A DNA stretch of 64,000 bases from contig CACBYP010000001.1 in assembly GCA_902543485.1 (NCBI GenBank), positions 124,001-188,000 on the forward strand, in the 5' to 3' direction. The DNA is from an uncultured Pelagibacteraceae bacterium. GTDB taxonomy: Bacteria > Pseudomonadota > Alphaproteobacteria > Pelagibacterales > Pelagibacteraceae. The notes below the pieces were generated by a model. It did not search any database and had not been told where the DNA came from. It saw only the letters and a list, made by a program, of their open reading frames with translations. Below, piece by piece: positions 9,123 to 41,471 of the stretch (the stretch's first letter is position 1; the number at the start of each line of letters is the position of its first letter). Both the position numbers and the translations under genes were made by a program.

Positions 9123-11555
9123 ATGAAATCCAAAGCAAAAGTTGTTGTAGTTGGTGGTGGAGTAGTAGGGGTTAGCGCACTCTATCACTTAGCAAAAAAA
9201 GGTTGGTCAGATGTTGCTTTAATTGAAAGAAAAGAACTAACATCAGGTTCAACTTGGCATGCAGCGGGCTTATTACCACTATTTAATATGAGTTATTCTG
9301 TAGGACAACTTCATAAGTATGCTGTCAATTTATATAAAACTTTAGAGGAAGAGACAGGTAAGAATGTAGGTTTCAGCGTTGTATCAAATATTAGATTAGC
9401 AAGTACTAAAGATAGAATGGATGAATACTTTCAATACGCAGGTGTTGCTCAAACAATAGGTGTTGATGTAAAATTTTTAACTCCAGACCAAGTTAAGGAA
9501 ATCTGGCCATTATGTAATACATCAGATTTAGTAGGTGCAATACAACACCCCGAAGATGGATATATTCAACCAGCAGATTTAACACAAGCTCTTGCTACAG
9601 GCGCAAGAAATAGAGGAGCAGAAATTTATAGAAATACAAATGTTGTTGGAATGAAACAAACCAAAGATGGTTGGGTTGTTGAAACAGATAAAGGATCTAT
9701 AGAGTGTGAACATATTATTTCTTGTTCAGGAAATTTTGCAAGACAAACTGGAAAGATGGTTGGTTTAGATATTCCAGTAATCCCAGTAGAACATCAATAC
9801 ATTGTTACTGAACCTCATCCAGAAATTCAAAAAAGAAAAAAAGATGGACTACCAGAAATGGGAGTTTTAAGAGATAGTGATAGCAGATGGTACATGAGAG
9901 AAGAAGCAGGTGGATTAATTTTAGGACCATATGAAGATGGAGCACCAGCTTGTTATGTAGATGGACCATCAAAAGATTCTGAATATGAATTATTTCAGGA
10001 AGATTTGGATAGATTGGCTCCACACATTGAAGGTGCAATACATAGAGTCCCTGCGTTTGGAGAGGTAGGAGTTAAGAAAGTTTATAACGGTGCAATTTGT
10101 TATACACCTGATGGTAACCCAATTGTTGGTCCTGCTTGGGGATTGAAAAATTTTTGGATAAATGAAGGTCATAGTTTTGGTATCACTGCAGCAGGTGGAG
10201 CAGGATGGCAACTTGCTGAATGGATTGTAGATGGTGAACCCACAATTGATATGCTTGGTGTTGAACCAAGAAGGTATGGAGATTATTGCTCTAAATCATA
10301 TTTAAAAGCTAAAAATGAAGAAGCCTACAGTCACGTTTTCATAACTCACTTTCCTGATGAAGAAAGACCAGCAGCAAGACCATTAAGAACAGCGCCATGT
10401 TATGACAGAATGAAAAATTTAGGAGCAGTGTTTGGTCAAAAATTTGGATGGGAACGACCTAATTTTTTTGCAACTGATGGAATGGAGCAAAAAGATGATT
10501 GGTCATTTAGAAGATCAAAATGGTTCAATGCAATGGAAAAAGAATGCAAAAACGTAAAAGAAAATGTTGGTCTTTTGGATATGACTGCATTTGCAAAATG
10601 TAGAATTAAAGGACCTGGTGCTGAGGAATTTTTAGATAATTTAGTTGCAAACAAATTACCAAAAAAAGTTGGAAGAATTAATTTATGTCATGCTTTAAAT
10701 ACTAAAGGCGGAGTTCATTCTGAATTTACTATTATGAGAGAGTCACATGATAGCTTTTATTTAGTATCAGCAGGAGCTTTCCAAAGATTAGATCATGATT
10801 GGATTTTAAAATGGATGCCTTCAGACGGTTCAGTGCAGTTTGAAAATTTAACTAATAGTAATGGAGTTTTGGTTGTTTCAGGTCCAAAAGCAAGAGAGTT
10901 AATGCAAAGAGTTTCAAAAGATGATTTTTCAAATGAAAACTTTAAATGGCTAAGTGCAAAAATGGTTGATGTAGGGTACGCACCAGTAAATGCTATGAGA
11001 GTTAATTTTGTTGGTGAATTAGGATGGGAACTTCATCATCCAATTGAATATCAAAATCACATTTTTGATAAACTTATGGAAGCAGGACAAGATCTTGGAC
11101 TAAAGCCATATGGTATTAGAGCAATGAATAGTTTGAGAGTAGAAAAATCGTATAAATTGGTTGGAACAGAACTATCAATAGAATACTCACCTTATGAAAG
11201 TGGTCTTGATAGATTTATACATCCTAATAAAGGAAGTTTTATTGGACTTGAAGCATTAAACAAGTGGAGAGAAAAAGGTTTTGATAACAAACTTGTTACC
11301 TTGGAGGTTCATAATCCAAAAGATGCAGATGTATTAGGCAACAATCCAATTTATGAAAATGGAAGTGTTATAGGAAGAGCTACAGGAGGAGATTTTGGTT
11401 TTAGAATTGGAAAATCATTAGCATTAGGTATGGTTAAACCAGAATTAGCAAATGTTGGACAAAAACTTAAAATTGAAATATTAGGTGAGAAATATGATGC
11501 TACAATTTTAGATGAAAGTCCTTACGATCCAGAAAACAATTTATTAAGAGCTTAA
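9123..11555 (+). CDS. Dimethylglycine dehydrogenase-like FAD/folate enzyme
   Basis: This 810-residue protein has an N-terminal FAD oxidoreductase (DAO) domain with [18 protein letters not shown] at residues 7-24 and the STWHAAGL segment that carries the FAD-linking histidine in DMGDH/SARDH. This is followed by FAO_M and a C-terminal GcvT aminomethyltransferase domain (about 440-810, with [12 protein letters not shown]). The family oxidatively demethylates N-methyl amines and passes C1 units to tetrahydrofolate. Electrons go to ETF, and etfB, etfA and ETF:quinone oxidoreductase follow directly, a textbook complete chain. The exact substrate (dimethylglycine, sarcosine or other) is not determinable. 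Confidence 0.88.
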
Positions 11556-32579: not shown

Positions 32580-33107
32580 TTAATGACCAGGAAAATCTAA
32601 AAGATTTTCAACTTTATATCCTTTTTTTAAAAGATTATCAGTACCACCAAGATCAAATAAATTAATTACAAAAATAAAACCTGCTACATTACTTTTTGAT
32701 ATTTCAATTAATTTAGCTGCCGCATCTGCGGTTCCGCCAGTTGCAATTAAATCATCAATAATTAATACATTATCGTTTTCATTAAATGAATCTTTGTGAA
32801 CTTCAATTGTAGCTGTTCCATATTCTAGTTCAAAATCTACAGAGTGTACTTCTGCAGGTAATTTATTTTTTTTTCTTAACATTATAAATGGCTTATCTAA
32901 GATATACGAAATAGCAGAAGCAAACACAAAGCCTCGGGATTCTACTGCAGCTATTTTATCAAAATTAAATTTTTTAGATCTCTCTACAATTTGATTTATA
33001 CACTCTTTGAAAGCCTTTTCGTTTTTAATTAGAGTTGTGATGTCTCTAAATAGAATTCCCTTTTTAGGATAGTCTTTAATTGATCTAATATGTTCTTTTA
33101 AATCCAT
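32580..33107 (-). CDS. apt: Adenine phosphoribosyltransferase
   Basis: The 175-residue enzyme converts adenine and PRPP to AMP. It has GILFRDITTLI, AAVESRGFVFASAIS, the PRPP motif VLIIDDLIATGGTADAA (about 118-134) and LLDFPGH at the end. It is divergent from mtnP across a 28-base gap. Since MtnP releases adenine from methylthioadenosine, the pairing is metabolically coherent. Length and motifs are standard. Confidence 0.95.
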   Translation of the reverse strand: MDLKEHIRSIKDYPKKGILFRDITTLIKNEKAFKECINQIVERSKKFNFDKIAAVESRGFVFASAISYILDKPFIMLRKKNKLPAEVHSVDFELEYGTATIEVHKDSFNENDNVLIIDDLIATGGTADAAAKLIEISKSNVAGFIFVINLFDLGGTDNLLKKGYKVENLLDFPGH

Positions 33108-33117
33108 AAAACTTAAT

Positions 33118-33123
33118 TATAAT
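33118..33123 (+). promoter_or_regulatory. Candidate -10 box of mtnP
   Basis: A perfect TATAAT lies 12 bases before the mtnP ATG (33136). Transcription would start near 33130, leaving only about six leader bases, so the messenger would be almost leaderless. No good -35 is seen. The 28-base divergent gap leaves no room for a longer leader. Confidence 0.4.
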
Positions 33124-33135
33124 CTAAAACGTATT

Positions 33136-34008
33136 ATGGCAAATAATAAATTAGCAATTATTGGTGGAAGTGGCCTATATGATGTTGAAGAGTTTAAAGA
33201 TAGAGAAACTTTAGATTTAAACACTCCATGGGGGAAACCCTCAGATTTAATATTAAAAGCTAAATATAATAATAAAGAAATTTATTTTTTACCAAGACAT
33301 GGAAAAGGTCATTTTATTTCTCCATCAAAAATAAATTTTAGAGCAAATATTGATGCTCTTAAACAACTAGGTATCACAGACATAGTTTCTGTTTCAGCCG
33401 TTGGATCTTTAAAAGAAGATTTACCCCCAGGTAAATTTGTTATCGTTGACCAATTCATTGATAGAACTTTTGCAAGAAACAAAACTTTTTTCGATGATGA
33501 GATTGTTGCTCATGTATCAATGGCACACCCAACCTCAAATGGGCTGATGAATGCTTGTGAAGATGCTATTAAAAAAGAAAATATAACTTATCAAAGAGGT
33601 GGAACTTATGTTGTAATGGAAGGTCCACAATTCTCTACATTAGCAGAGTCAAATCTATATAGATCATGGAAAGCAGATGTTATTGGAATGACAAATATGC
33701 CAGAAGCCAAGCTAGCAAGAGAAGCTGAAATCAGATATGCTTCTGTATCGATGGTAACAGATTATGATTGCTGGCATCCAGATCATGAAAATGTTGATGT
33801 TCAACAAGTTATAAAAGTACTCTTAGATAATGCCGCGAAAGCAAAAAATATGATTAAAAATTTGATAGATAACTTTGAAAATCACATAGATCCTAATGAT
33901 CCAACTAATAATTGCTTAGATGTAGCAATAATTACAGCTCCAGAAAAAAGAACACAAAAAACTAAAAATAAATTAAAAACAATTGCAGGAAGAGTTTTAA
34001 ATATATGA
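33136..34008 (+). CDS. mtnP: S-methyl-5'-thioadenosine phosphorylase
   Basis: The 290-residue phosphorylase cleaves methylthioadenosine (the by-product of spermidine synthesis) to adenine and methylthioribose-1-phosphate. Motifs are LAIIGGSGLYDVEEF at the N-terminus, PRHGKGHFISPS (phosphate site), VMEGPQFSTLAES, and the substrate loop IGMTNMPEAKLAREAEI, then VTDYDCWH. These are MTAP/MTIP-type rather than general purine phosphorylase features. The stop overlaps the next gene by ATGA. Confidence 0.94.
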   Translation: MANNKLAIIGGSGLYDVEEFKDRETLDLNTPWGKPSDLILKAKYNNKEIYFLPRHGKGHFISPSKINFRANIDALKQLGITDIVSVSAVGSLKEDLPPGKFVIVDQFIDRTFARNKTFFDDEIVAHVSMAHPTSNGLMNACEDAIKKENITYQRGGTYVVMEGPQFSTLAESNLYRSWKADVIGMTNMPEAKLAREAEIRYASVSMVTDYDCWHPDHENVDVQQVIKVLLDNAAKAKNMIKNLIDNFENHIDPNDPTNNCLDVAIITAPEKRTQKTKNKLKTIAGRVLNI

Positions 34009-34937
34009 AGAAACTATTTTTAATTTCATTATTTTTGATTATTTCTAATTTAGCTTACGCTAATGGTAAAATTTTAAAAAGTGGATTTTTTACTAAATCA
34101 GCCTCAGTAGAGGAGGGTATGGACGTAAAAGATCCAAAAAACAAAATTATAATTATTTATAATCATGGTCAAAATTCAAATGATAAAGCACACAAGAATG
34201 AATGTATTTGGGTAAATCAAATAAGAAATCAAGCTTCATTAGTTGATGATGAAATTAATGGCAAAAAAATTATGGTTTATAATTTCTGCTCAAATGATTT
34301 TGCAGGTGATATGTCATTAAAAAAACACTGGTGGAAGTCCAAAACTCCTTATGTAGGTAAACATAAGTTAGACAAAAGGATTGAAAAAAATTTAGAATTA
34401 GTTGAAAAATTTATAGAAATAGGAGTACCTAGAAAACAAATTATTATTTCAGGACATTCCTGTGGAGGATTATTAACCTTAATGTTGTTGTCTGCTCATC
34501 CCGAAAAAGTTGGTGGTGGAATATCATATATGCAAGCTTGCTTTGGTAAGCTTTCTAAAAGTTATAAAGTAAAAAAAGTAGGTCCTGAAAAGGCATTAGC
34601 AAAATTTGCTAAAAAATACCCGGGCCCTGCTGAATTAAGAGCAAGACAAATTAATAATATTAAAAATTCTGAAAATGTTCCTGTTCTAGCTTTTACGCAT
34701 CCAAAAGATAAGTTTGAAGGTCTGTTATCTGACTGGTTAGAAGAAGTTCCAGGAGTTAAAAGAATTGTTATTTCTAAAGATTATAAAATTAACGGAAAAT
34801 CTTGTGCTGTCAAAGGAGTTGATTGGCAAAAAAATATCTCAGCTCAGAAAAATCCAGGTCATGAAATGAACCAGGCTGATTGTTTTCAATATTATAATCC
34901 AACAATTAAAGAATACATTGCTTCAAGAATAAAATAA
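34005..34937 (+). CDS. Secreted alpha/beta hydrolase-like protein between mtnP and mtnA
   Basis: The 310-residue protein has a signal peptide (MKKLFLISLFLIISNLAYAN, cleavage after AYA near residue 19) and an alpha/beta-hydrolase nucleophile elbow ISGHSCGGLLTL, with a late histidine in NPGHEMNQ. It resembles dienelactone-hydrolase-like secreted esterases, but the substrate is unknown. It overlaps mtnP by ATGA and mtnA by TAATG, so it is firmly inside the methylthioadenosine operon. An exported enzyme there is odd, since the other steps are cytoplasmic. Confidence 0.75.
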   Translation: MKKLFLISLFLIISNLAYANGKILKSGFFTKSASVEEGMDVKDPKNKIIIIYNHGQNSNDKAHKNECIWVNQIRNQASLVDDEINGKKIMVYNFCSNDFAGDMSLKKHWWKSKTPYVGKHKLDKRIEKNLELVEKFIEIGVPRKQIIISGHSCGGLLTLMLLSAHPEKVGGGISYMQACFGKLSKSYKVKKVGPEKALAKFAKKYPGPAELRARQINNIKNSENVPVLAFTHPKDKFEGLLSDWLEEVPGVKRIVISKDYKINGKSCAVKGVDWQKNISAQKNPGHEMNQADCFQYYNPTIKEYIASRIK

Positions 34938-36013
34938 TGAAAATTAATGGTGTTGAATATAAAACGATTTGGTTTGATGAAGAAAAACAAATTGTAAAAA
35001 TTATAGATCAGACAAAGCTGCCACATAAATTTATAATAAAAGAATTAAGTTCAGTTAAAGACGCTGTAAATGCTATCAAAACAATGGAGGTCCGAGGTGC
35101 ACCATTAATTGGAGGCACAGCTGCATTTGGATTGGTTTTAGCTATAAAAGAAAATAACAGTTTAGATTTTATTAAAAAAAGTTCAGAGGAATTAGTTGCA
35201 TCTAGACCAACAGCAATAAATCTTCAATGGGCAGTTCACAGAATGAATAACAAATTGTCATTTGTTGAGCCTGTAGATTTATTTAAAGTTGCACTCAATG
35301 AAGCTAAGGAAATTTGTAAAGAGGATGAGGGATTTTGTGAAAGTATTGGTAAAAATGGATTAAATATTATTGAAGATATATATAATAAAAAGAAAGATAC
35401 CGTAAATATTCTTACACATTGCAATGCAGGTTGGTTAGCCACAATAAATTGGGGAACAGCTACATCTCCTATTTATCATGCACATAAAAAAGGAATACCA
35501 ATACATGTTTGGGTAGATGAAACTAGACCAAGAAATCAAGGAGCAAACCTTACATCATATGAACTTAATGAAGAAGAAATTCCAAATACTATTATAGCAG
35601 ATAATACAGGTGGAATATTAATGCAAAGAGGACAGGTTGATATGTGTATTGTTGGAACAGATAGAACATTATCTAATGGAGATGTATGCAATAAAATTGG
35701 AACCTATTTAAAAGCCCTTGCAGCTCATGATAATAAGATACCTTTTTATGTTGCTTTACCAAGTTCAACGATAGATTGGAATTTAAAAAACTCTAAAGAT
35801 ATTCCAATAGAAGAAAGAGATCCAAAAGAACTTTCCCATGTGGATGGAATTAACAAAGATAATAAAGTTGATAAAGTTTTAATATATCCTGAAAAAAGTA
35901 AATCATTAAATTTAGCCTTTGATGTAACACCCGCTAAATATGTTACTGCATTAATAACAGAAAAGGGAGTTTGTGATGCTTCTTCTGAAGGATTAAAAAA
36001 GTTATTTAATTAA
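34937..36013 (+). CDS. mtnA: Methylthioribose-1-phosphate isomerase
   Basis: The 358-residue enzyme isomerises methylthioribose-1-phosphate to methylthioribulose-1-phosphate. Family marks are MEVRGAPLIGGTAAFGL, LTHCNAGWLATINWGTATSPIY, VWVDETRPRNQGANLTSYEL with the catalytic region, VGTDRTLSNGDVCNKIGTY, and PFYVALPSSTID. It is related to eIF2B subunits but is clearly of MtnA type. It directly follows the secreted hydrolase gene. Its 3' end abuts the convergent aldolase-dehydrogenase gene without a spacer. Confidence 0.94.
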   Translation: MKINGVEYKTIWFDEEKQIVKIIDQTKLPHKFIIKELSSVKDAVNAIKTMEVRGAPLIGGTAAFGLVLAIKENNSLDFIKKSSEELVASRPTAINLQWAVHRMNNKLSFVEPVDLFKVALNEAKEICKEDEGFCESIGKNGLNIIEDIYNKKKDTVNILTHCNAGWLATINWGTATSPIYHAHKKGIPIHVWVDETRPRNQGANLTSYELNEEEIPNTIIADNTGGILMQRGQVDMCIVGTDRTLSNGDVCNKIGTYLKALAAHDNKIPFYVALPSSTIDWNLKNSKDIPIEERDPKELSHVDGINKDNKVDKVLIYPEKSKSLNLAFDVTPAKYVTALITEKGVCDASSEGLKKLFN

Positions 36014-38047
36014 TTATCTTAAAGACGCAGCAATATTTCCACCGTCTACGGTTAATACTGCTCCAGTTGATTTTTTTGATATCGCAAGATGATAAAAAGC
36101 TTTGGCCACATCATCTGCTTTAACTTCGCTTAACAGTAGATTGCCACTCATATATTGATCTGTGGTTACTTCTCTAGCCTTTGCCCTTTGTTTAATCATT
36201 TTATCATTTAATAAACCACTTCTAATTCTATCAGCGTTAACACCATTTGATCTAATACCAAGGTGTCCATAATCAATTGCATATTGCTTACACAAATTTA
36301 ATAGCGCAGACTTTGGCAATCCGTATGGTCCAAAATTTTTACCAGGATTAACTGATTGCTTGGATATATTAAATAACAAACATCCATTTATATTTTGTTT
36401 TTTCATAATTTTTACAGCCTCTGATGCACAATTTTGATGTGAGAAAAAATTATCTTCAAAACTTTTTCGAAGTATTTTATCATTAACTTCTGCAATTGAT
36501 CCACCAATAGCAGTACCAGCATTAGATATTAAAATATCTACACCCCCGTATATCTCCAAAATTTTATTAAATGCTTTTTTTACACTTTGTTTATTGGTTA
36601 CATCACAATGAATACAAAGATCACTTATTTTTGTTTGTAAGTCATTTATCTTATTTTTATTAATATCAAGCAAAACAACTTCTGCTCCGTATTTTTTAAA
36701 TAATTTATAGGTTGCTTTACCAATTTCACCAGTGCTACCAGTGATAACTACAACGTTGCCTTGCAACTCTTTTTTTGCTTTATTTAATTTTGCTTGTTCC
36801 AAGGACCAATACTCGACATCAAATAAGTCTTTTTTTGATAAGAATTTATATCTGGACGTCTCTTCAACACTTGAAATTACATTGGCATTAGTTTGAGTTA
36901 AATCCCCTGCAATTTTTGCAGCTTTTAAGGTATCTCCTACTGTAAATAAACCAAAATTCTGAATAAGAATTACTCTAGGAGATGTATCAAGCATTACTTT
37001 TTTTTCTTTAGTTTTTTTCTTATTGGCTTCAAAATATTTTTTATATTTTTTCCGATATTCTTTGAATTTTTTTTCAGCTAAATTTTTAAATTCATCTAAA
37101 GTACAGTTTGCTTTTGGTGATATTACTAAAGGAAATGGTTTAACTCTTATAACATGATCAGGTGTAGCTGTTCCTTCGTGTGAATACCTATTTATATCTT
37201 TACCATTAATAAAATAATCTAACTTATTATTTTTTTTAAAATTTAAGATAAATTTGTTATCATTTTTTTCAGATAAAAGACCTCTCAATATAGGAGCTAT
37301 ATCTGCAGTTGAGAAATTAAATTTAGTTTTCTTTATCTGTTTTACTTTTTTCTTTTTTAGTTTGGTTAAAGTTTTTTCAGCATCAGATATATACTTAATC
37401 ATTAAACTGTAAGCATCTTTTGCATTATCAGCAAATGTAAAAATACCGTGGTTTAATAAAATTAAACAGTTTATATTTGGGTTTTTAGAATAAACTTCAT
37501 TTATTTTTTGCGCTAATTTAAATCCTGGCATTACATAGGGTACTATTGCAGTTTTTTTACCAAATATTTTTTTTGATAGTATTTCTCCATTTGGTCTATT
37601 AGTAATTTTCATAATTGCATCTGAGTGAGTGTGATCGACAAATTTAAATGGTAAAAATGCATGTAAAAAAGTTTCAACTGATGGATTAGGTGATTTTGTA
37701 TCTATCAAATTTTTTTTTTGAAAAGCAACCATGTCATCATCAGAGAGCGTTTTCTTTTTTTTCATAGTAAGCAATGGATTTAATTTAACAGCTGGCAAAC
37801 CTGCTGGTTCAATTTCAGCCATATCCCATCCGCTGCCTTTTACGCAAAGAACATCATAATATTTACCATCTATATCTTTGATTTTTGTCTTAACGGATGT
37901 ATTGCCACCACCATGTAATACTAATTCTGGATTTCTTCCTAGAAGCCTGGTTGTATAAACTCTTAAAGCCATATCTTCAGAATGACCTAATTTCTTATAC
38001 TTTTTAATATATTTTTTAGCTTCGTTTTCTGACCAATTGTTTTTCAA
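36014..38047 (-). CDS. Fused class II aldolase - short-chain dehydrogenase
   Basis: The 677-residue protein joins an N-terminal class II aldolase/adducin-type domain (about 1-420; GGGNTSVKTK, zinc HTHSDAIM, LLNHGIFTF) to a C-terminal SDR domain (about 430-677; VVITGSTGEIGKATYKLF, YGLPK with the YxxxK pair, TVDGG). Relatives are annotated as rhamnulose-1-phosphate aldolase/lactaldehyde dehydrogenase (RhaDE-like). The first domain should yield DHAP plus an aldehyde, and the second should oxidise or reduce that aldehyde. It lies tail to tail with mtnA, whose product is a ketose-1-phosphate. Either rhamnulose or methylthioribulose-1-phosphate could be substrate. Confidence 0.85.
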   Translation of the reverse strand: MKNNWSENEAKKYIKKYKKLGHSEDMALRVYTTRLLGRNPELVLHGGGNTSVKTKIKDIDGKYYDVLCVKGSGWDMAEIEPAGLPAVKLNPLLTMKKKKTLSDDDMVAFQKKNLIDTKSPNPSVETFLHAFLPFKFVDHTHSDAIMKITNRPNGEILSKKIFGKKTAIVPYVMPGFKLAQKINEVYSKNPNINCLILLNHGIFTFADNAKDAYSLMIKYISDAEKTLTKLKKKKVKQIKKTKFNFSTADIAPILRGLLSEKNDNKFILNFKKNNKLDYFINGKDINRYSHEGTATPDHVIRVKPFPLVISPKANCTLDEFKNLAEKKFKEYRKKYKKYFEANKKKTKEKKVMLDTSPRVILIQNFGLFTVGDTLKAAKIAGDLTQTNANVISSVEETSRYKFLSKKDLFDVEYWSLEQAKLNKAKKELQGNVVVITGSTGEIGKATYKLFKKYGAEVVLLDINKNKINDLQTKISDLCIHCDVTNKQSVKKAFNKILEIYGGVDILISNAGTAIGGSIAEVNDKILRKSFEDNFFSHQNCASEAVKIMKKQNINGCLLFNISKQSVNPGKNFGPYGLPKSALLNLCKQYAIDYGHLGIRSNGVNADRIRSGLLNDKMIKQRAKAREVTTDQYMSGNLLLSEVKADDVAKAFYHLAISKKSTGAVLTVDGGNIAASLR

Positions 38048-38135
38048 TGTTAATCCTCGATAAATTATTATAATAGTTTTTTGTTTGAAAGAAGTAAAAA
38101 ATTTCGTTAGTTAAAAAAATAAATATTAGATTTTT

Positions 38136-39176
38136 ATGGAAAAAGTTGGGGAACATATAACACTGGATATAGTTGGAACTAAAAAGGAATATACTCCCGA
38201 ATTTTATGAAAAGTTAGTATATAAAATTGCTAAAGCAGCAAAAGTAACAGTTTTAAAAATTTCAAAATATAAATTCGAGCCACAAGGATTTACATTAGTC
38301 GCTTTGCTTGCTGAAAGCCACATTAGTTTTCATACTTTCCCAGAAAAAGAAATTGTAAGCTTTGATTTTTTTACATGTGGAAAAGTATCACCTAAAGTTT
38401 CTCTAGATATAATAAAAGACGAAATGGAACATACAAATATAATAATTAAAGAATTTGATAGAGATACTATTGATCTTTATCATGACAATTATAGTTCTCC
38501 AGGTTTAAAAAAATCATATGTTGTTAATAGAGTTTTAGAAAATTTTAAATCTAAAGTAGGCCAATATATTGAAATACTTGATTTAGAACAATTTGGAAAA
38601 GCTTTATTTATCGATAATGAAATACAAGTAGCTGAAAGCGATGAACATTTATATAGCTCAACCTTTGTAAATTCAGGTCTTAATTTAAATTCAAACAAAG
38701 AAAAAGCTGCAATTATTGGTGGAGGTGATGGTGGTGTTGCAAGAGAATGCATTTCACAAAACTTTGGCTTTATAGATTGGTATGAATTAGATCCTGAGGT
38801 TGTTGATGTATGTGATAAACATTTAAGCAAAATTGGCGAGAAAGCTACTGAAAAGAATTCAGTTAAATGTGTTTGGGGAGATGCTTTTGAAAGTATTAAA
38901 TCTGTTAAAGACAATACTTATGATCAAATATTTGTAGATCTAAATGATGATCAATTTTGCATAGATTTGGCTGCAAAAAATATGTCATCTTTAGAAAGAA
39001 TTTTAAAACCTAAAGGTGTAATTACCGCTCAAGTAGGAAGTCAAGACAAAAAACCAAAACAAGTTGAAAATTGGTTAAATGTTTTTAATAAAAATTTTGG
39101 AAATACAAAACTTTCAAGAGTTTATATACCTAGTTTCGATTGTTCTTGGAATTTTTCCTCGTCAATAAATCATTAA
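38136..39176 (+). CDS. Fused S-adenosylmethionine decarboxylase - spermidine synthase
   Basis: The 346-residue protein is a fusion. Residues about 1-118 are a prokaryotic SpeD: AESHISFHTFPE holds the self-cleavage site between E60 and S61 (the serine becomes pyruvoyl), H66 is the processing histidine, and C81 the catalytic donor in FFTCG. Residues about 125-346 are SpeE: IIGGGDGGVARE (SAM site), DEHLYSST and VDLNDDQ near the catalytic aspartates. One chain thus makes and uses decarboxylated SAM, releasing methylthioadenosine for MtnP. Self-cleavage would free the SpeD beta fragment from the SpeE-bearing rest. Confidence 0.9.
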   Translation: MEKVGEHITLDIVGTKKEYTPEFYEKLVYKIAKAAKVTVLKISKYKFEPQGFTLVALLAESHISFHTFPEKEIVSFDFFTCGKVSPKVSLDIIKDEMEHTNIIIKEFDRDTIDLYHDNYSSPGLKKSYVVNRVLENFKSKVGQYIEILDLEQFGKALFIDNEIQVAESDEHLYSSTFVNSGLNLNSNKEKAAIIGGGDGGVARECISQNFGFIDWYELDPEVVDVCDKHLSKIGEKATEKNSVKCVWGDAFESIKSVKDNTYDQIFVDLNDDQFCIDLAAKNMSSLERILKPKGVITAQVGSQDKKPKQVENWLNVFNKNFGNTKLSRVYIPSFDCSWNFSSSINH

Positions 39177-39234
39177 TTTTTCTTTTTAAAACAATAATTT
39201 TATGAAATAATCTTCAAAATTTTTGGAGGAAAAA

Positions 39235-40062
39235 ATGAAAAAATTAAAAGTATTAGGACTTGGTATTTTGATATCGTCATTTCTAACAATTTCTTCAATT
39301 GCAGATCAAATTAAAATAGGAACCGAAGGCGCATATCCGCCTTGGAATTCTAAAGATTCAGCTGGAAATTTGATTGGCTTTGAAGTCGAATTAGCAAATG
39401 AATTATGTAAAATAATGAAACATGATTGCACTATAGTAGAGCAAGACTGGGATGGAATGATACCAGCTTTAGTCTCAAGAAAATTTGATGCCATCATGGC
39501 TGGAATGTCAATAACTGGTGAGAGAATGAAAACAATAAACTTTTCTCAAGGTTATGCTGATGAAGTTGCATCATTAGCTGTTATGAAAGGATCGAAAAAC
39601 GAAGGCCTTAAAACAATGTCAGCTATAAATTTATCTGACGTAAGTGCTGATGAACAAGCAACACTAGACGTTTTGACCAAAGCATTTAAAGGCAAAACTA
39701 TTGGTGTACAAACAGCAACAATTCACCAGAACTTCTTAGAGTCTGGTTTAATGGGTAATGTAAAAATAAGAACTTATAAAACTCAAGATGAAGTAAACTT
39801 AGATTTATCTGCTGGTAGAATAGATGCAGCATTAGCTGCAGCAGTTGCTTTTACAGATTATGCAGAAAAATCTGGTAAAGGAGTTGTATTAACTGGACCA
39901 ACATTTGCAGGTGGAGATTTTGGTAATGGTGTTGGCGTAGGTATTAGAAAAGGTGACTCTAAACTTTTAAATGATTTTAATGCAGCAATTGATAAAGCTA
40001 GAGATGATGGCATTATTAGTAAGCTTGCTATAAAACATTTTGGTTTTGACGCCTCTATGTAA
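39235..40062 (+). CDS. Polar amino acid ABC transporter substrate-binding protein
   Basis: The 275-residue protein has a signal peptide (MKKLKVLGLGILISSFLTIS, cleavage near SIADQIK) and is a family 3 solute-binding protein: IGTEGAYPPWNSKDSAGNL, GFEVELANELCK, QDWDGMIPALVSRKFD and AGMSITGERMKTINFS. It resembles the lysine/arginine/ornithine or histidine binders, though the ligand is not certain. I chose ATG 39235, preceded by GGAGGA at 39225-39230, while TTG 39223 lies in the ribosome site itself. Confidence 0.92.
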   Translation: MKKLKVLGLGILISSFLTISSIADQIKIGTEGAYPPWNSKDSAGNLIGFEVELANELCKIMKHDCTIVEQDWDGMIPALVSRKFDAIMAGMSITGERMKTINFSQGYADEVASLAVMKGSKNEGLKTMSAINLSDVSADEQATLDVLTKAFKGKTIGVQTATIHQNFLESGLMGNVKIRTYKTQDEVNLDLSAGRIDAALAAAVAFTDYAEKSGKGVVLTGPTFAGGDFGNGVGVGIRKGDSKLLNDFNAAIDKARDDGIISKLAIKHFGFDASM

Positions 40063-40074
40063 TAAATTATTTAT

Positions 40075-40096
40075 GGGTGGCTATAATTAGCCACCT
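40075..40096 (+). other. Stem-loop between amino acid binding-protein and permease genes
   Basis: GGTGGCTA (40076-40083) and TAGCCACC (40088-40095) pair perfectly around TAAT, extended by G-U and A-T pairs. No T tract follows, so it is more likely a messenger-stabilising element that gives high binding-protein expression than a terminator. It falls in the 39-base gap before the permease gene. Confidence 0.65.
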
Positions 40097-40101
40097 ATAT
40101 T

Positions 40102-40794
40102 ATGGAACTTCTATATTTTGGTGATAAAGGTTGGGGAGACGAGTTATTTTTCGCAACCTTAATGACAATTGCGGTCTCAATAACCGCGATGATAATTGGC
40201 TTTATATTTGCTGCTTTATTTACTCCATTAAAATTATCTAATAATAAATTTCTTAATTCTATTGGTAATGCATACACCACTGTTATTAGAGGTGTACCAG
40301 AGCTTCTAGTAATTTATTTATTTTTCTTTGGTGGAAGTGGAGCTATTATGTTTGTTGCTTCAATATTTGGCTATAATGATTATATCGAAATTAATGCTTT
40401 TTTAACTGGTTCATTTTCAATAGGGATAATATCGGGAGCGTATTCAACTGAAGTATTTAGAGGAGCCCTACAATCAATAGATAAAGGTCAGTTCGAAGCT
40501 GCAAAAGTTTTAGGTTTTGATAAATATATTTACTTCTTTAAAATTATTTTGCCTCAAATGCTAAGACTTGCAATTCCTAACTTAAGTAATGTTTGGCAAA
40601 TTACATTAAAAGATACTTCTCTTATATCTGTAACTGGTTTAGTTGAAATAATGAGACAATCCTATATTGCAGCTGGTTCAACTAGAGATCCATTATTTTT
40701 TTACTCATTTGCAGCAATTTTATACTTGATGCTTACGTTTTTAAGTATGCAATTATTAAATAGATTAGAAACAAAATATAGCAAAGGTTATTGA
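40102..40794 (+). CDS. Polar amino acid ABC transporter permease (HisQ-like)
   Basis: The 230-residue protein is a five-helix permease of the HisMQ family, with VIRGVPELLVIYLFFFGG and the EAA loop QFEAAKVLGFDKYIYFFKIILPQ (ATPase contact, given in part). It pairs with the following permease. It comes 39 bases after the binding protein gene, past a stem-loop. The ATPase gene is missing from this operon. Its TGA overlaps the next ATG. Confidence 0.92.
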   Translation: MELLYFGDKGWGDELFFATLMTIAVSITAMIIGFIFAALFTPLKLSNNKFLNSIGNAYTTVIRGVPELLVIYLFFFGGSGAIMFVASIFGYNDYIEINAFLTGSFSIGIISGAYSTEVFRGALQSIDKGQFEAAKVLGFDKYIYFFKIILPQMLRLAIPNLSNVWQITLKDTSLISVTGLVEIMRQSYIAAGSTRDPLFFYSFAAILYLMLTFLSMQLLNRLETKYSKGY

Positions 40795-41471
40795 TGGATA
40801 TTGAATTAATGATTAGTAGTTTTCCTAAGTTGTTAAACGCAACTTTGATTACTCTTAAACTACTATCTGTATCTCTATTTCTTGGTCTTTTTATTGGATT
40901 AGGTTTTGCAATCTTGAGAATGAATAATAATAAGTTGATTAATAAATTTGCTTACGGGTATTCATATATTTTTAGAGGAACACCTTTATTGGTTCAAATC
41001 TTCATAATATATTTTGGATTAGGTCAAATTGAATACTTAAGAACAACATTTTTGTGGGTAGTTTTAAAAGAACCATATTGGTGTGCAATAATAGCATTTT
41101 CATTAAACACTGGTGCTTACACATCAGAAATATTGAGATCAGCATTTCAAACTATAAAGCCAGGATATTTAGAAGCTGGAAGAAGCTTAGGTATACCTTC
41201 AAAAATTATTTTTACAAAAATACAAATTCCTATAGCAATTAAACAATCTTTACCAGCTTATGGTAATGAAATTATTTTAATGCTTAAAGGTACATCTTTG
41301 GCAAGTACAGTCACACTTATGGACTTAACTGGTGTTGCTAAATATATAATTTCAACTACGTTTAAGCCAGTAGAAGTATTTATTGTGGCAGGAGGTATTT
41401 ATTTGTTTATGACTTTTATAATTCATAATGTTATTAAATATTTAGAAAAAAAATATGGGTTTCAAACATGA
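40794..41471 (+). CDS. Polar amino acid ABC transporter permease (HisM-like)
   Basis: The 225-residue protein is the second HisMQ-type permease, with FRGTPLLVQIFIIYFGLG and PGYLEAGRSLGIPSKIIF as the ATPase contact loop. I chose ATG 40794, which overlaps the TGA of the upstream gene (TGATG); a TTG three bases upstream is unlikely. Its end overlaps the nitrilase gene by ATGA. Confidence 0.92.
   Translation: MDIELMISSFPKLLNATLITLKLLSVSLFLGLFIGLGFAILRMNNNKLINKFAYGYSYIFRGTPLLVQIFIIYFGLGQIEYLRTTFLWVVLKEPYWCAIIAFSLNTGAYTSEILRSAFQTIKPGYLEAGRSLGIPSKIIFTKIQIPIAIKQSLPAYGNEIILMLKGTSLASTVTLMDLTGVAKYIISTTFKPVEVFIVAGGIYLFMTFIIHNVIKYLEKKYGFQT

Follow-up and report, generated by a model that had tools for sequence, protein, structure and literature searches.

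An aldolase–dehydrogenase fusion gene that replaces a stand-alone aldolase in SAR11 bacteria probably encodes an enzyme of the dihydroxyacetone phosphate shunt

We analyzed a 64,000-nucleotide stretch (the window; positions 124001 to 188000 of contig C1) of the genome of an uncultured Pelagibacteraceae bacterium (G000; 1.31 Mb in 21 contigs, 97.9% complete), in which a gene at 36014..38047 on the minus strand, with a TTG start, encodes a class II aldolase, a middle domain, and a short-chain dehydrogenase/reductase (SDR) fused into one protein. The gene lies between mtnA and a speD-speE fusion (speDE), and its product is probably the aldolase of a dihydroxyacetone phosphate (DHAP) shunt for methylthioadenosine and 5'-deoxyadenosine, with an NAD-dependent aldehyde dehydrogenase built in. 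Context strongly supports the aldolase role, and the fusion very probably carries out the step after MtnA, because it replaces a stand-alone aldolase one for one in SAR11 (Pelagibacterales), stands in an operon with mtnA in a second Pelagibacterales family, and is linked to mtnA or mtnP in Alphaproteobacteria more broadly. Its substrate, its product, and, above all, its oxidative direction are what we infer.

In the proposed pathway, MtnP would act on methylthioadenosine supplied by SpeE or on 5'-deoxyadenosine, giving adenine, which Apt would retain, and 5-methylthioribose-1-phosphate or 5-deoxyribose-1-phosphate, which MtnA would convert to the corresponding ribulose-1-phosphate. The N-terminal aldolase of the fusion would then cleave this ketose-1-phosphate, releasing DHAP together with an aldehyde, 2-(methylthio)acetaldehyde or acetaldehyde, which the C-terminal SDR, using NAD+, would turn into (methylthio)acetate or acetate, with the whole protein standing in for the FucA/Ald2-like aldolase of most sampled mtnA-bearing SAR11. 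Shunt chemistry combined with the oxidation performed by the rhamnose enzyme RhaEW implies that the fusion should cut methylthioribulose-1-phosphate and oxidize the aldehyde in place. A reading of the window from sequence alone had proposed a one-enzyme shunt at this locus; the aldolase step is supported by the replacement, the operon, and the linkage, but "one-enzyme" overstates the case, because the route also depends on MtnP and MtnA.

Results

Aldolase and fusion alternate at a single slot. Of 61 genomes of the genus sampled first, 44 have mtnA and eight have a fusion above the family cut-off (library scores are given throughout in bits against the curated cut-off of each family). The 44 comprise the eight fusion genomes, 34 with a separate class II aldolase of ~210 to 230 amino acids, and two (G031 and G044) with neither, whose contigs end inside the region; a 35th separate aldolase occurs in G005, which has no mtnA match. 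In this sample, speDE adjoins all eight fusions and 34 of the 35 separate aldolases, the remaining one being at a contig end.

When the sample was widened to 297 Pelagibacterales genomes (presence counted from genome tables, distances taken from rows in which both gene places were given, stand-alone aldolase profile searched at E ≤ 1e-45), 203 had mtnA, 165 the separate aldolase, and 42 the fusion. The mtnA genomes divide into 161 with the aldolase only, 41 with the fusion only, none with both, and a single one (G198) with neither. Genomes without mtnA contribute one fusion, in G246, where a contig end truncates it, together with four aldolases (a further partial class II aldolase on contig C3 of G001, which also lacks an mtnA match, was left out), and all three genes are absent from 89 genomes. 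Two one-contig, essentially complete SAR11 genomes (G012 and G071) are without an mtnA, separate aldolase, or fusion match at the thresholds used. Among the matches listed, speDE is the divergent neighbor of the fusion in 30 of 30 loci, window included, and the further loci fetched from Pelagibacterales family f1 have it as neighbor wherever it is on the contig (the contig of L197 begins inside the fusion). In G000 itself, the stand-alone profile finds no match at the above threshold, and hence no dedicated Ald2 by this measure; the fusion occupies the aldolase slot. The one other class II aldolase of G000, at C3:120246-120794, is AraD-like (NF006047, 219 bits; cut-off 257), with neighbors that by eye resemble sugar-nucleotide and membrane genes.

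The replacement can be seen directly by comparing the window with two aldolase-bearing close relatives (L114 and L130): DNA homology extends as far as 35997, which leaves the last 16 bases of mtnA outside it, and picks up again at 38135-38141, in the first codons of speDE, with identities of 92 to 93% in the main flanks and 83 to 87% in one block each. In close relatives, the aldolase between mtnA and speDE is thus cleanly replaced by the fusion. Parsimony on trees of the flanking genes gives 9 changes with mtnP and mtnA (58 genomes), 9 when speDE is added (56 genomes), and 10 with speDE alone (75 genomes). We estimate that about nine aldolase/fusion exchanges have taken place in SAR11, a figure that is approximate because 19 of the 53 inner branches of the 56-genome tree are weak, fusion genomes are overrepresented in the sample, and the markers are linked to the locus. 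(The trees omit L107, L108, L133, and L145, which have no aldolase label; L134 and L154, the second contigs of two genomes; genomes lacking a concatenated gene; and duplicate loci per genome.) Repeated exchange in which both genes never occur together and are almost never both missing is expected if they perform the same needed step. The pattern suggests that the shunt itself is common in SAR11 and is run by two interchangeable versions. Given that most of the mtnA-bearing genomes sampled (161 of 203) have the separate Ald2-like enzyme, the fusion is an alternative route rather than the sole SAR11 route.

Matches to one such separate aldolase in the PDB are led by FucA entries (3e-46), followed by 6btd (1e-39; 9.5e-40), which we take to be DrdA; the MtnB entry 4m6r scores 23.7 bits, and four queries score 57 to 72 bits with the MtnB family TIGR03328 (cut-off 137). 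By this PDB ranking and these sub-cut-off scores, the separate aldolase was rejected as an MtnB. Glu80, His99, His101, and His162 are kept in 11 of 11 aligned sequences.

Both halves of the fusion look active. The class II aldolase domain covers residues ~24 to 228, the middle domain 229 to 424, and the SDR domain 425 to 677 (Pfam PF00596 and adh_short). An AlphaFold2 model of the protein has a mean predicted local distance difference test score of 90.9, and a fold search matches its residues 1 to 228 to PDB entry 3m4r at a Z score of 32.2; in the search aimed at the middle domain, the matches listed consisted of SDR chains and one aldolase. Glu125, His139, His141, and His200 in the aldolase and Asp461, Asn509, Asn533, Ser562, Tyr575, and Lys579 in the SDR are invariant across 38 of 38 aligned fusions. 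We take these columns to be the positions that carry catalysis and metal binding in class II aldolases and SDRs, presuming for the aldolase the catalytic roles of Glu73 and the His ligands of FucA and for the SDR its motifs likewise, and it is because they are invariant that neither half appears to have decayed. By score, the protein belongs to NF006192 (PRK08324.1-6; 907.9 bits, cut-off 639) and falls outside TIGR02632 (RhaD_aldol-ADH; 446.5 bits, cut-off 567.75), although it has the class II aldolase and SDR architecture of RhaEW and TIGR02632.

The fusion extends beyond SAR11. In the second Pelagibacterales family (f2; loci L186, L187, and L188), the fusion is 51 to 53% identical to that of the window and lies directly after mtnA on the same strand; L186 and L187 have an operon apt-mtnP-mtnA-fusion with overlapping open reading frames (ORFs), the contig of L188 ends inside mtnA, and no speDE was seen beside the operon in the three loci. 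After the operon, L186 has a PAD_porph gene at 10244-11383 that is nearest agmatine deiminase yet under its cut-off; L187 is without it at the corresponding place.

We searched 385 alphaproteobacterial genomes for the fusion at E ≤ 1e-90, with matches at E ≤ 1e-150 assigned to type I and the rest to type II. The fusion occurs in 81 genomes, of which 69 (window included) are type I and 12 fall below that threshold, G637 being counted as type II on a partial match with an internal stop that may be a broken type I gene. mtnA is present in 65 of the 69 type I carriers versus 116 of the 316 other genomes (Fisher P = 5e-20, relatedness ignored). For the 51 genomes in which both places were given, 26 besides that of the window carry mtnA upstream of the fusion, on the same strand and within 2 kb; the place of mtnA is not given for 16 carriers, and an mtnA match is absent in 14 of the 81. 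Among 29 loci read with flanks of up to 1.5 kb, 18 contain mtnA and/or mtnP, as do 10 of 12 named non-SAR11 loci of this type (some of which are on the same contigs as other loci, e.g., L266 and L207), and mtnP alone stands directly upstream of the fusion in L216, L220, L228, L265, and L274. This type of fusion therefore reaches beyond SAR11 into many Alphaproteobacteria and is often linked to mtnA or mtnP.

A third group of fusions, from gammaproteobacterial, betaproteobacterial, cyanobacterial, Chloroflexota, and other records, is 34 to 38% identical to the window protein and forms a separate clade, with mtnA close to the fusion in 4 of its 30 loci (the betaproteobacterial L293, L305, and L314 and the Arcobacter locus L310). 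The cyanobacterial members L295, L298, L299, and L304 have no mtnA in the flanks examined. PMC8102628 states that cyanobacteria with mtnP and mtnA only, and no Ald2 homolog, must use another route for 5'-deoxyadenosine, for which the third-group fusion is a candidate.

Classical salvage genes are rare among carriers. The sequence-only reading had noted that the window lacks mtnB and mtnD, and in G000 neither exceeds its cut-off: there is no PF03079 match for mtnD at E ≤ 0.001, and the best mtnB match, at the AraD-like gene, reaches 48 bits (cut-off 137), an absence that is not absolute because the genome is 97.9% complete. None of the 42 Pelagibacterales fusion carriers and 2 of 26 other carriers have mtnD above its cut-off; for mtnB, the counts are 0 of 16 and 2 of 26, the two being the same genomes (G702 and G418).

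The block in the window. The fusion is part of a 6.6-kb block with the order apt, mtnP, an alpha/beta-hydrolase-like ORF, mtnA, fusion, and speD-speE. Profile scores place each of the five genes recognized from the sequence alone where it had been read, although that list omitted the sixth ORF and so was incomplete. apt (adenine phosphoribosyltransferase; 32580..33107, minus strand) scores 212 bits with NF002636 (cut-off 125) and 199.7 with TIGR01090 (cut-off 185.85), and mtnP (5'-methylthioadenosine phosphorylase; 33136..34008, plus strand) scores 444.5 with NF006492 (cut-off 437) and 313 with TIGR01694 (cut-off 274.85). mtnA (5-methylthioribose-1-phosphate isomerase; 34937..36013, plus strand) scores 411 with TIGR00512 (cut-off 279), and speD-speE (S-adenosylmethionine decarboxylase plus spermidine synthase; 38136..39176, plus strand) matches PF02675 at 90 bits, PF01564 at 87 bits, and TIGR03330 at 93 bits (cut-off 75.65). 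The speD-speE product would be a source of methylthioadenosine, and apt would recycle the adenine that MtnP releases. The fusion lies on the other strand from mtnA and speDE, with its stop codon immediately next to the end of mtnA and a divergent intergenic region of 88 bases (38048..38135) between its start and speDE. The arrangement is not due to chance, because it recurs in other genomes.

The accessory sixth ORF (34005..34937, plus strand) matches PF02230 (Abhydrolase_2) weakly, at 23.5 bits (cut-off 23), and is variable: the same cluster occurs in L114 and in none of the loci of the seven other first-sample fusion genomes, four of which have nothing between mtnP and mtnA, while L102 and L103 carry an ORF from a different cluster there and the contig of L101 begins just upstream of mtnA, with an unassigned ORF there. 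The mtnP–mtnA gap is thus a variable slot, containing ORF cluster F9 in L102 (14351-15142; PhyH by Pfam, judged from the L102 sequence), L103, and L106 and a different, weakly hydrolase-like ORF in L111 (9402-10208). In L101, L102, L104, and L106, ~3.5 to 15 kb of extra genes separate mtnA from the aldolase or fusion, and ORF clusters F13 to F17 and F21 to F23 within this extra DNA are common to distant genomes; the interval looks like a site of frequent gene exchange. Downstream of speDE, at 39223-41471, are a lysine/arginine/ornithine-type substrate-binding protein (TIGR01096, 232 bits; cut-off 256) and two permease-like ORFs, whose position is kept in most SAR11 loci read.

At Rfam gathering thresholds, the whole window yields a single tRNA, with no riboswitch and no match in 38048..38135, and riboswitch control of the block was rejected on the grounds that this tRNA is the only match. 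Promoter-like matches in the region (30, fewer than the mean of 41.5 in shuffled sequences) were not used.

Discussion

Several points weigh against the assignment of the fusion to the shunt. SDR domains usually act on alcohols or ketones, and oxidation of an aldehyde by the fusion therefore has a single precedent, which comes from a separate clade. The fusions of family f1 are antisense to mtnA and speDE and so are not cotranscribed with either. Related genomes are not independent, and the Fisher values disregard kinship; in 24 of the 51 genomes with both places given, the fusion is distant from mtnA or on another contig; four type I carriers lack an mtnA match, two of them with partial fusions; and both mtnA and mtnP are missing from 11 of the 29 short loci. 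In G702 and G418 (family f80), mtnB and mtnD are adjacent on a contig other than that of the fusion, so the two routes can coexist. The separate aldolase, although nearest FucA and DrdA, is under the curated cut-offs of all families listed. Finally, SAR11 SpeE has been proposed to be able to run in reverse (PMC8437039), which would lessen the supply of methylthioadenosine; this would alter the amount of methylthioadenosine and not its proposed fate.

Four alternatives deserve consideration. Under the first, the main substrate is 5-deoxyribulose-1-phosphate, derived from 5'-deoxyadenosine (a radical S-adenosylmethionine by-product), with methylthioadenosine secondary and acetate as the product. 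The dual-purpose nature of MtnP, MtnA, and Ald2 (PMC10986504) and the f2 operon, beside which no speDE was seen, are consistent with it. The f1 slot, however, lies beside speDE wherever the neighbor is visible, the product of speDE is methylthioadenosine, and the two substrates are not mutually exclusive; we judge such a ranking of substrates to be rather unlikely.

The second alternative keeps the pathway and reverses its last step, with the SDR reducing the aldehyde with NADH to 2-(methylthio)ethanol or ethanol. SDR-family reductases are among the fold neighbors of the fusion model, and the invariant Asp461 (38 of 38) fits NAD(H) by a rule that we presume to apply, leaving the direction undecided. 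Characterized DHAP shunts yield 2-(methylthio)ethanol (PMC5893883 and PMC10986504), the reduction being attributed in Rhodopseudomonas palustris, Rhodospirillum rubrum, and Escherichia coli to a separate alcohol dehydrogenase, but RhaEW needed NAD+ and was inactive with NADH (PMC3870299). Reduction is unlikely in our view. The sequence-only reading had left the product as either methylthioethanol or methylthioacetate; on the RhaEW precedent, oxidation to (methylthio)acetate appears the more likely of the two.

The third alternative makes the fusion an aldolase/dehydrogenase for rhamnulose-1-phosphate, or another 6-deoxyketose-1-phosphate, that is at this locus by chance. Its architecture is that of RhaEW, and it does match TIGR02632 at 446 bits, but that match is below the cut-off, and fusions from rha loci look different. 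We read three distant fusions (L328 to L330) of the 12 under the type I threshold: L329 and L330 adjoin L-rhamnose isomerase genes (TIGR02629, 725 and 630 bits; cut-off 647), and L328 adjoins an FGGY_C_2-domain kinase and ORFs that by eye resemble sugar transport genes. All three score 856 to 1027 bits with TIGR02632 and 406 to 442, under the cut-off, with NF006192, the reverse of the window protein, with which they share 31 to 34% identity in the aldolase domain and 31 to 36% in the SDR. In a quick tree (omitting L303, whose best open segment is 384 amino acids), they form a separate branch with 100% support in the Shimodaira–Hasegawa-like approximate likelihood ratio test, and 3 of 3 have Asp at the catalytic-type column where mtn-type proteins have Glu125. 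No rha locus is apparent among the neighbors of the fusion in the window. The single FGGY_N (PF00370) kinase of G000 is a glycerol kinase; this search for rhamnose genes is partial, in that the rhamnose-type kinase of L328 escapes PF00370, as a divergent rhamnulokinase would too, and rhamnose isomerase was not searched in G000 (34 of the 42 Pelagibacterales carriers have a PF00370 match, with the identity determined for that of G000 only). Moreover, that none of 203 mtnA genomes has both aldolases is hard to obtain by chance. On curated score, locus, clade, and active-site column, we reject the window fusion as a rhamnose enzyme, and with it, as regards family membership, the RhaDE-like label given from sequence alone; a chance placement of this kind is very improbable.

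Fourth, the fusion might act on the MtnA product as an MtnB-like dehydratase feeding classical salvage, which is scarcely credible: MtnB is indeed a member of this class II aldolase family (PMC6302742), but mtnD exceeds its cut-off in none of the 42 Pelagibacterales carriers, and the gene replaced is FucA-like, with the low 4m6r and TIGR03328 scores given above.

A DHAP-shunt aldolase with a built-in dehydrogenase thus remains our preferred account of the fusion. Whether this amounts to a widespread oxidative shunt, in which many Alphaproteobacteria use an mtn-linked fusion distinct from the rhamnose enzyme to convert methylthioadenosine and 5'-deoxyadenosine to DHAP, NADH, and (methylthio)acetate or acetate and which SAR11 repeatedly swaps for a stand-alone aldolase, is a broader proposal that we hold with about even confidence; if it is true, neighboring ocean cells turn the same by-product into different sulfur products.

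Cells of SAR11 rank among the most abundant in the ocean, and one methylthioadenosine is left for each spermidine made. Our counts suggest that most mtnA-bearing SAR11 run a DHAP shunt, the versions of which may release different organosulfur compounds. Neither an mtn-linked aldolase–SDR fusion nor a DHAP shunt in SAR11 was seen to be described in the literature searched, the apparent main survey of the shunt's distribution being outside that search; the excerpts of the SAR11 polyamine study (PMC8437039) describe no route of methylthioadenosine disposal, and mtnP and mtnA are each counted once in that paper. The name of NF006192, "bifunctional aldolase/short-chain dehydrogenase," gives no substrate, and the one proposed here offers this large family a testable candidate. 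Fusions of the mtn type should not be annotated as rhamnose enzymes.

Comparison with known systems

We regard the fusion route as a variant form of the known DHAP shunt that occurs across Alphaproteobacteria and that, in SAR11, is interchangeable with a separate aldolase, an equivalence supported for the aldolase step. From methylthioadenosine or 5'-deoxyadenosine, the known shunt forms DHAP plus 2-(methylthio)acetaldehyde or acetaldehyde by way of MtnP (or a nucleosidase and a kinase), MtnA, and Ald2, and in E. coli, its sulfur product accumulates as 2-methylthioethanol (PMC10986504); R. palustris forms 2-(methylthio)ethanol and takes it on to methanethiol (PMC5893883). As in R. rubrum, R. 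palustris, and E. coli ATCC 25922, the window combines MtnP and MtnA with a class II aldolase predicted to release DHAP, in a genome with no mtnB or mtnD above cut-off. In contrast to the Ald2 shunt, the aldolase here is fused to an SDR and belongs to another branch of the class II family, the aldehyde step is built in and probably oxidative, and the locus lies beside speDE.

The fusion resembles RhaEW/RhaD_aldol-ADH (Bacillus subtilis YuxG and its counterpart in Chloroflexus aurantiacus) in its class II aldolase–middle–SDR architecture and in the proposed cleavage of a ketose-1-phosphate to DHAP and an aldehyde followed by oxidation with NAD+; the NAD+-requiring C. aurantiacus enzyme converts L-rhamnulose-1-phosphate to DHAP and lactate and, according to its authors, is of a kind always found in rha loci (PMC3870299). 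The aldolase activity of RhaEW is reported to depend on NAD+. The two differ in locus (rha versus mtn), clade, family cut-off, and the residue at the catalytic-type column (Asp versus Glu). Equivalent chemistry is also known from the disposal of 5-deoxyribose by DrdA of Bacillus thuringiensis, a single-domain enzyme fed by a kinase rather than by MtnP (PMC8102628); a stand-alone SAR11 aldolase gives the match to 6btd noted above.

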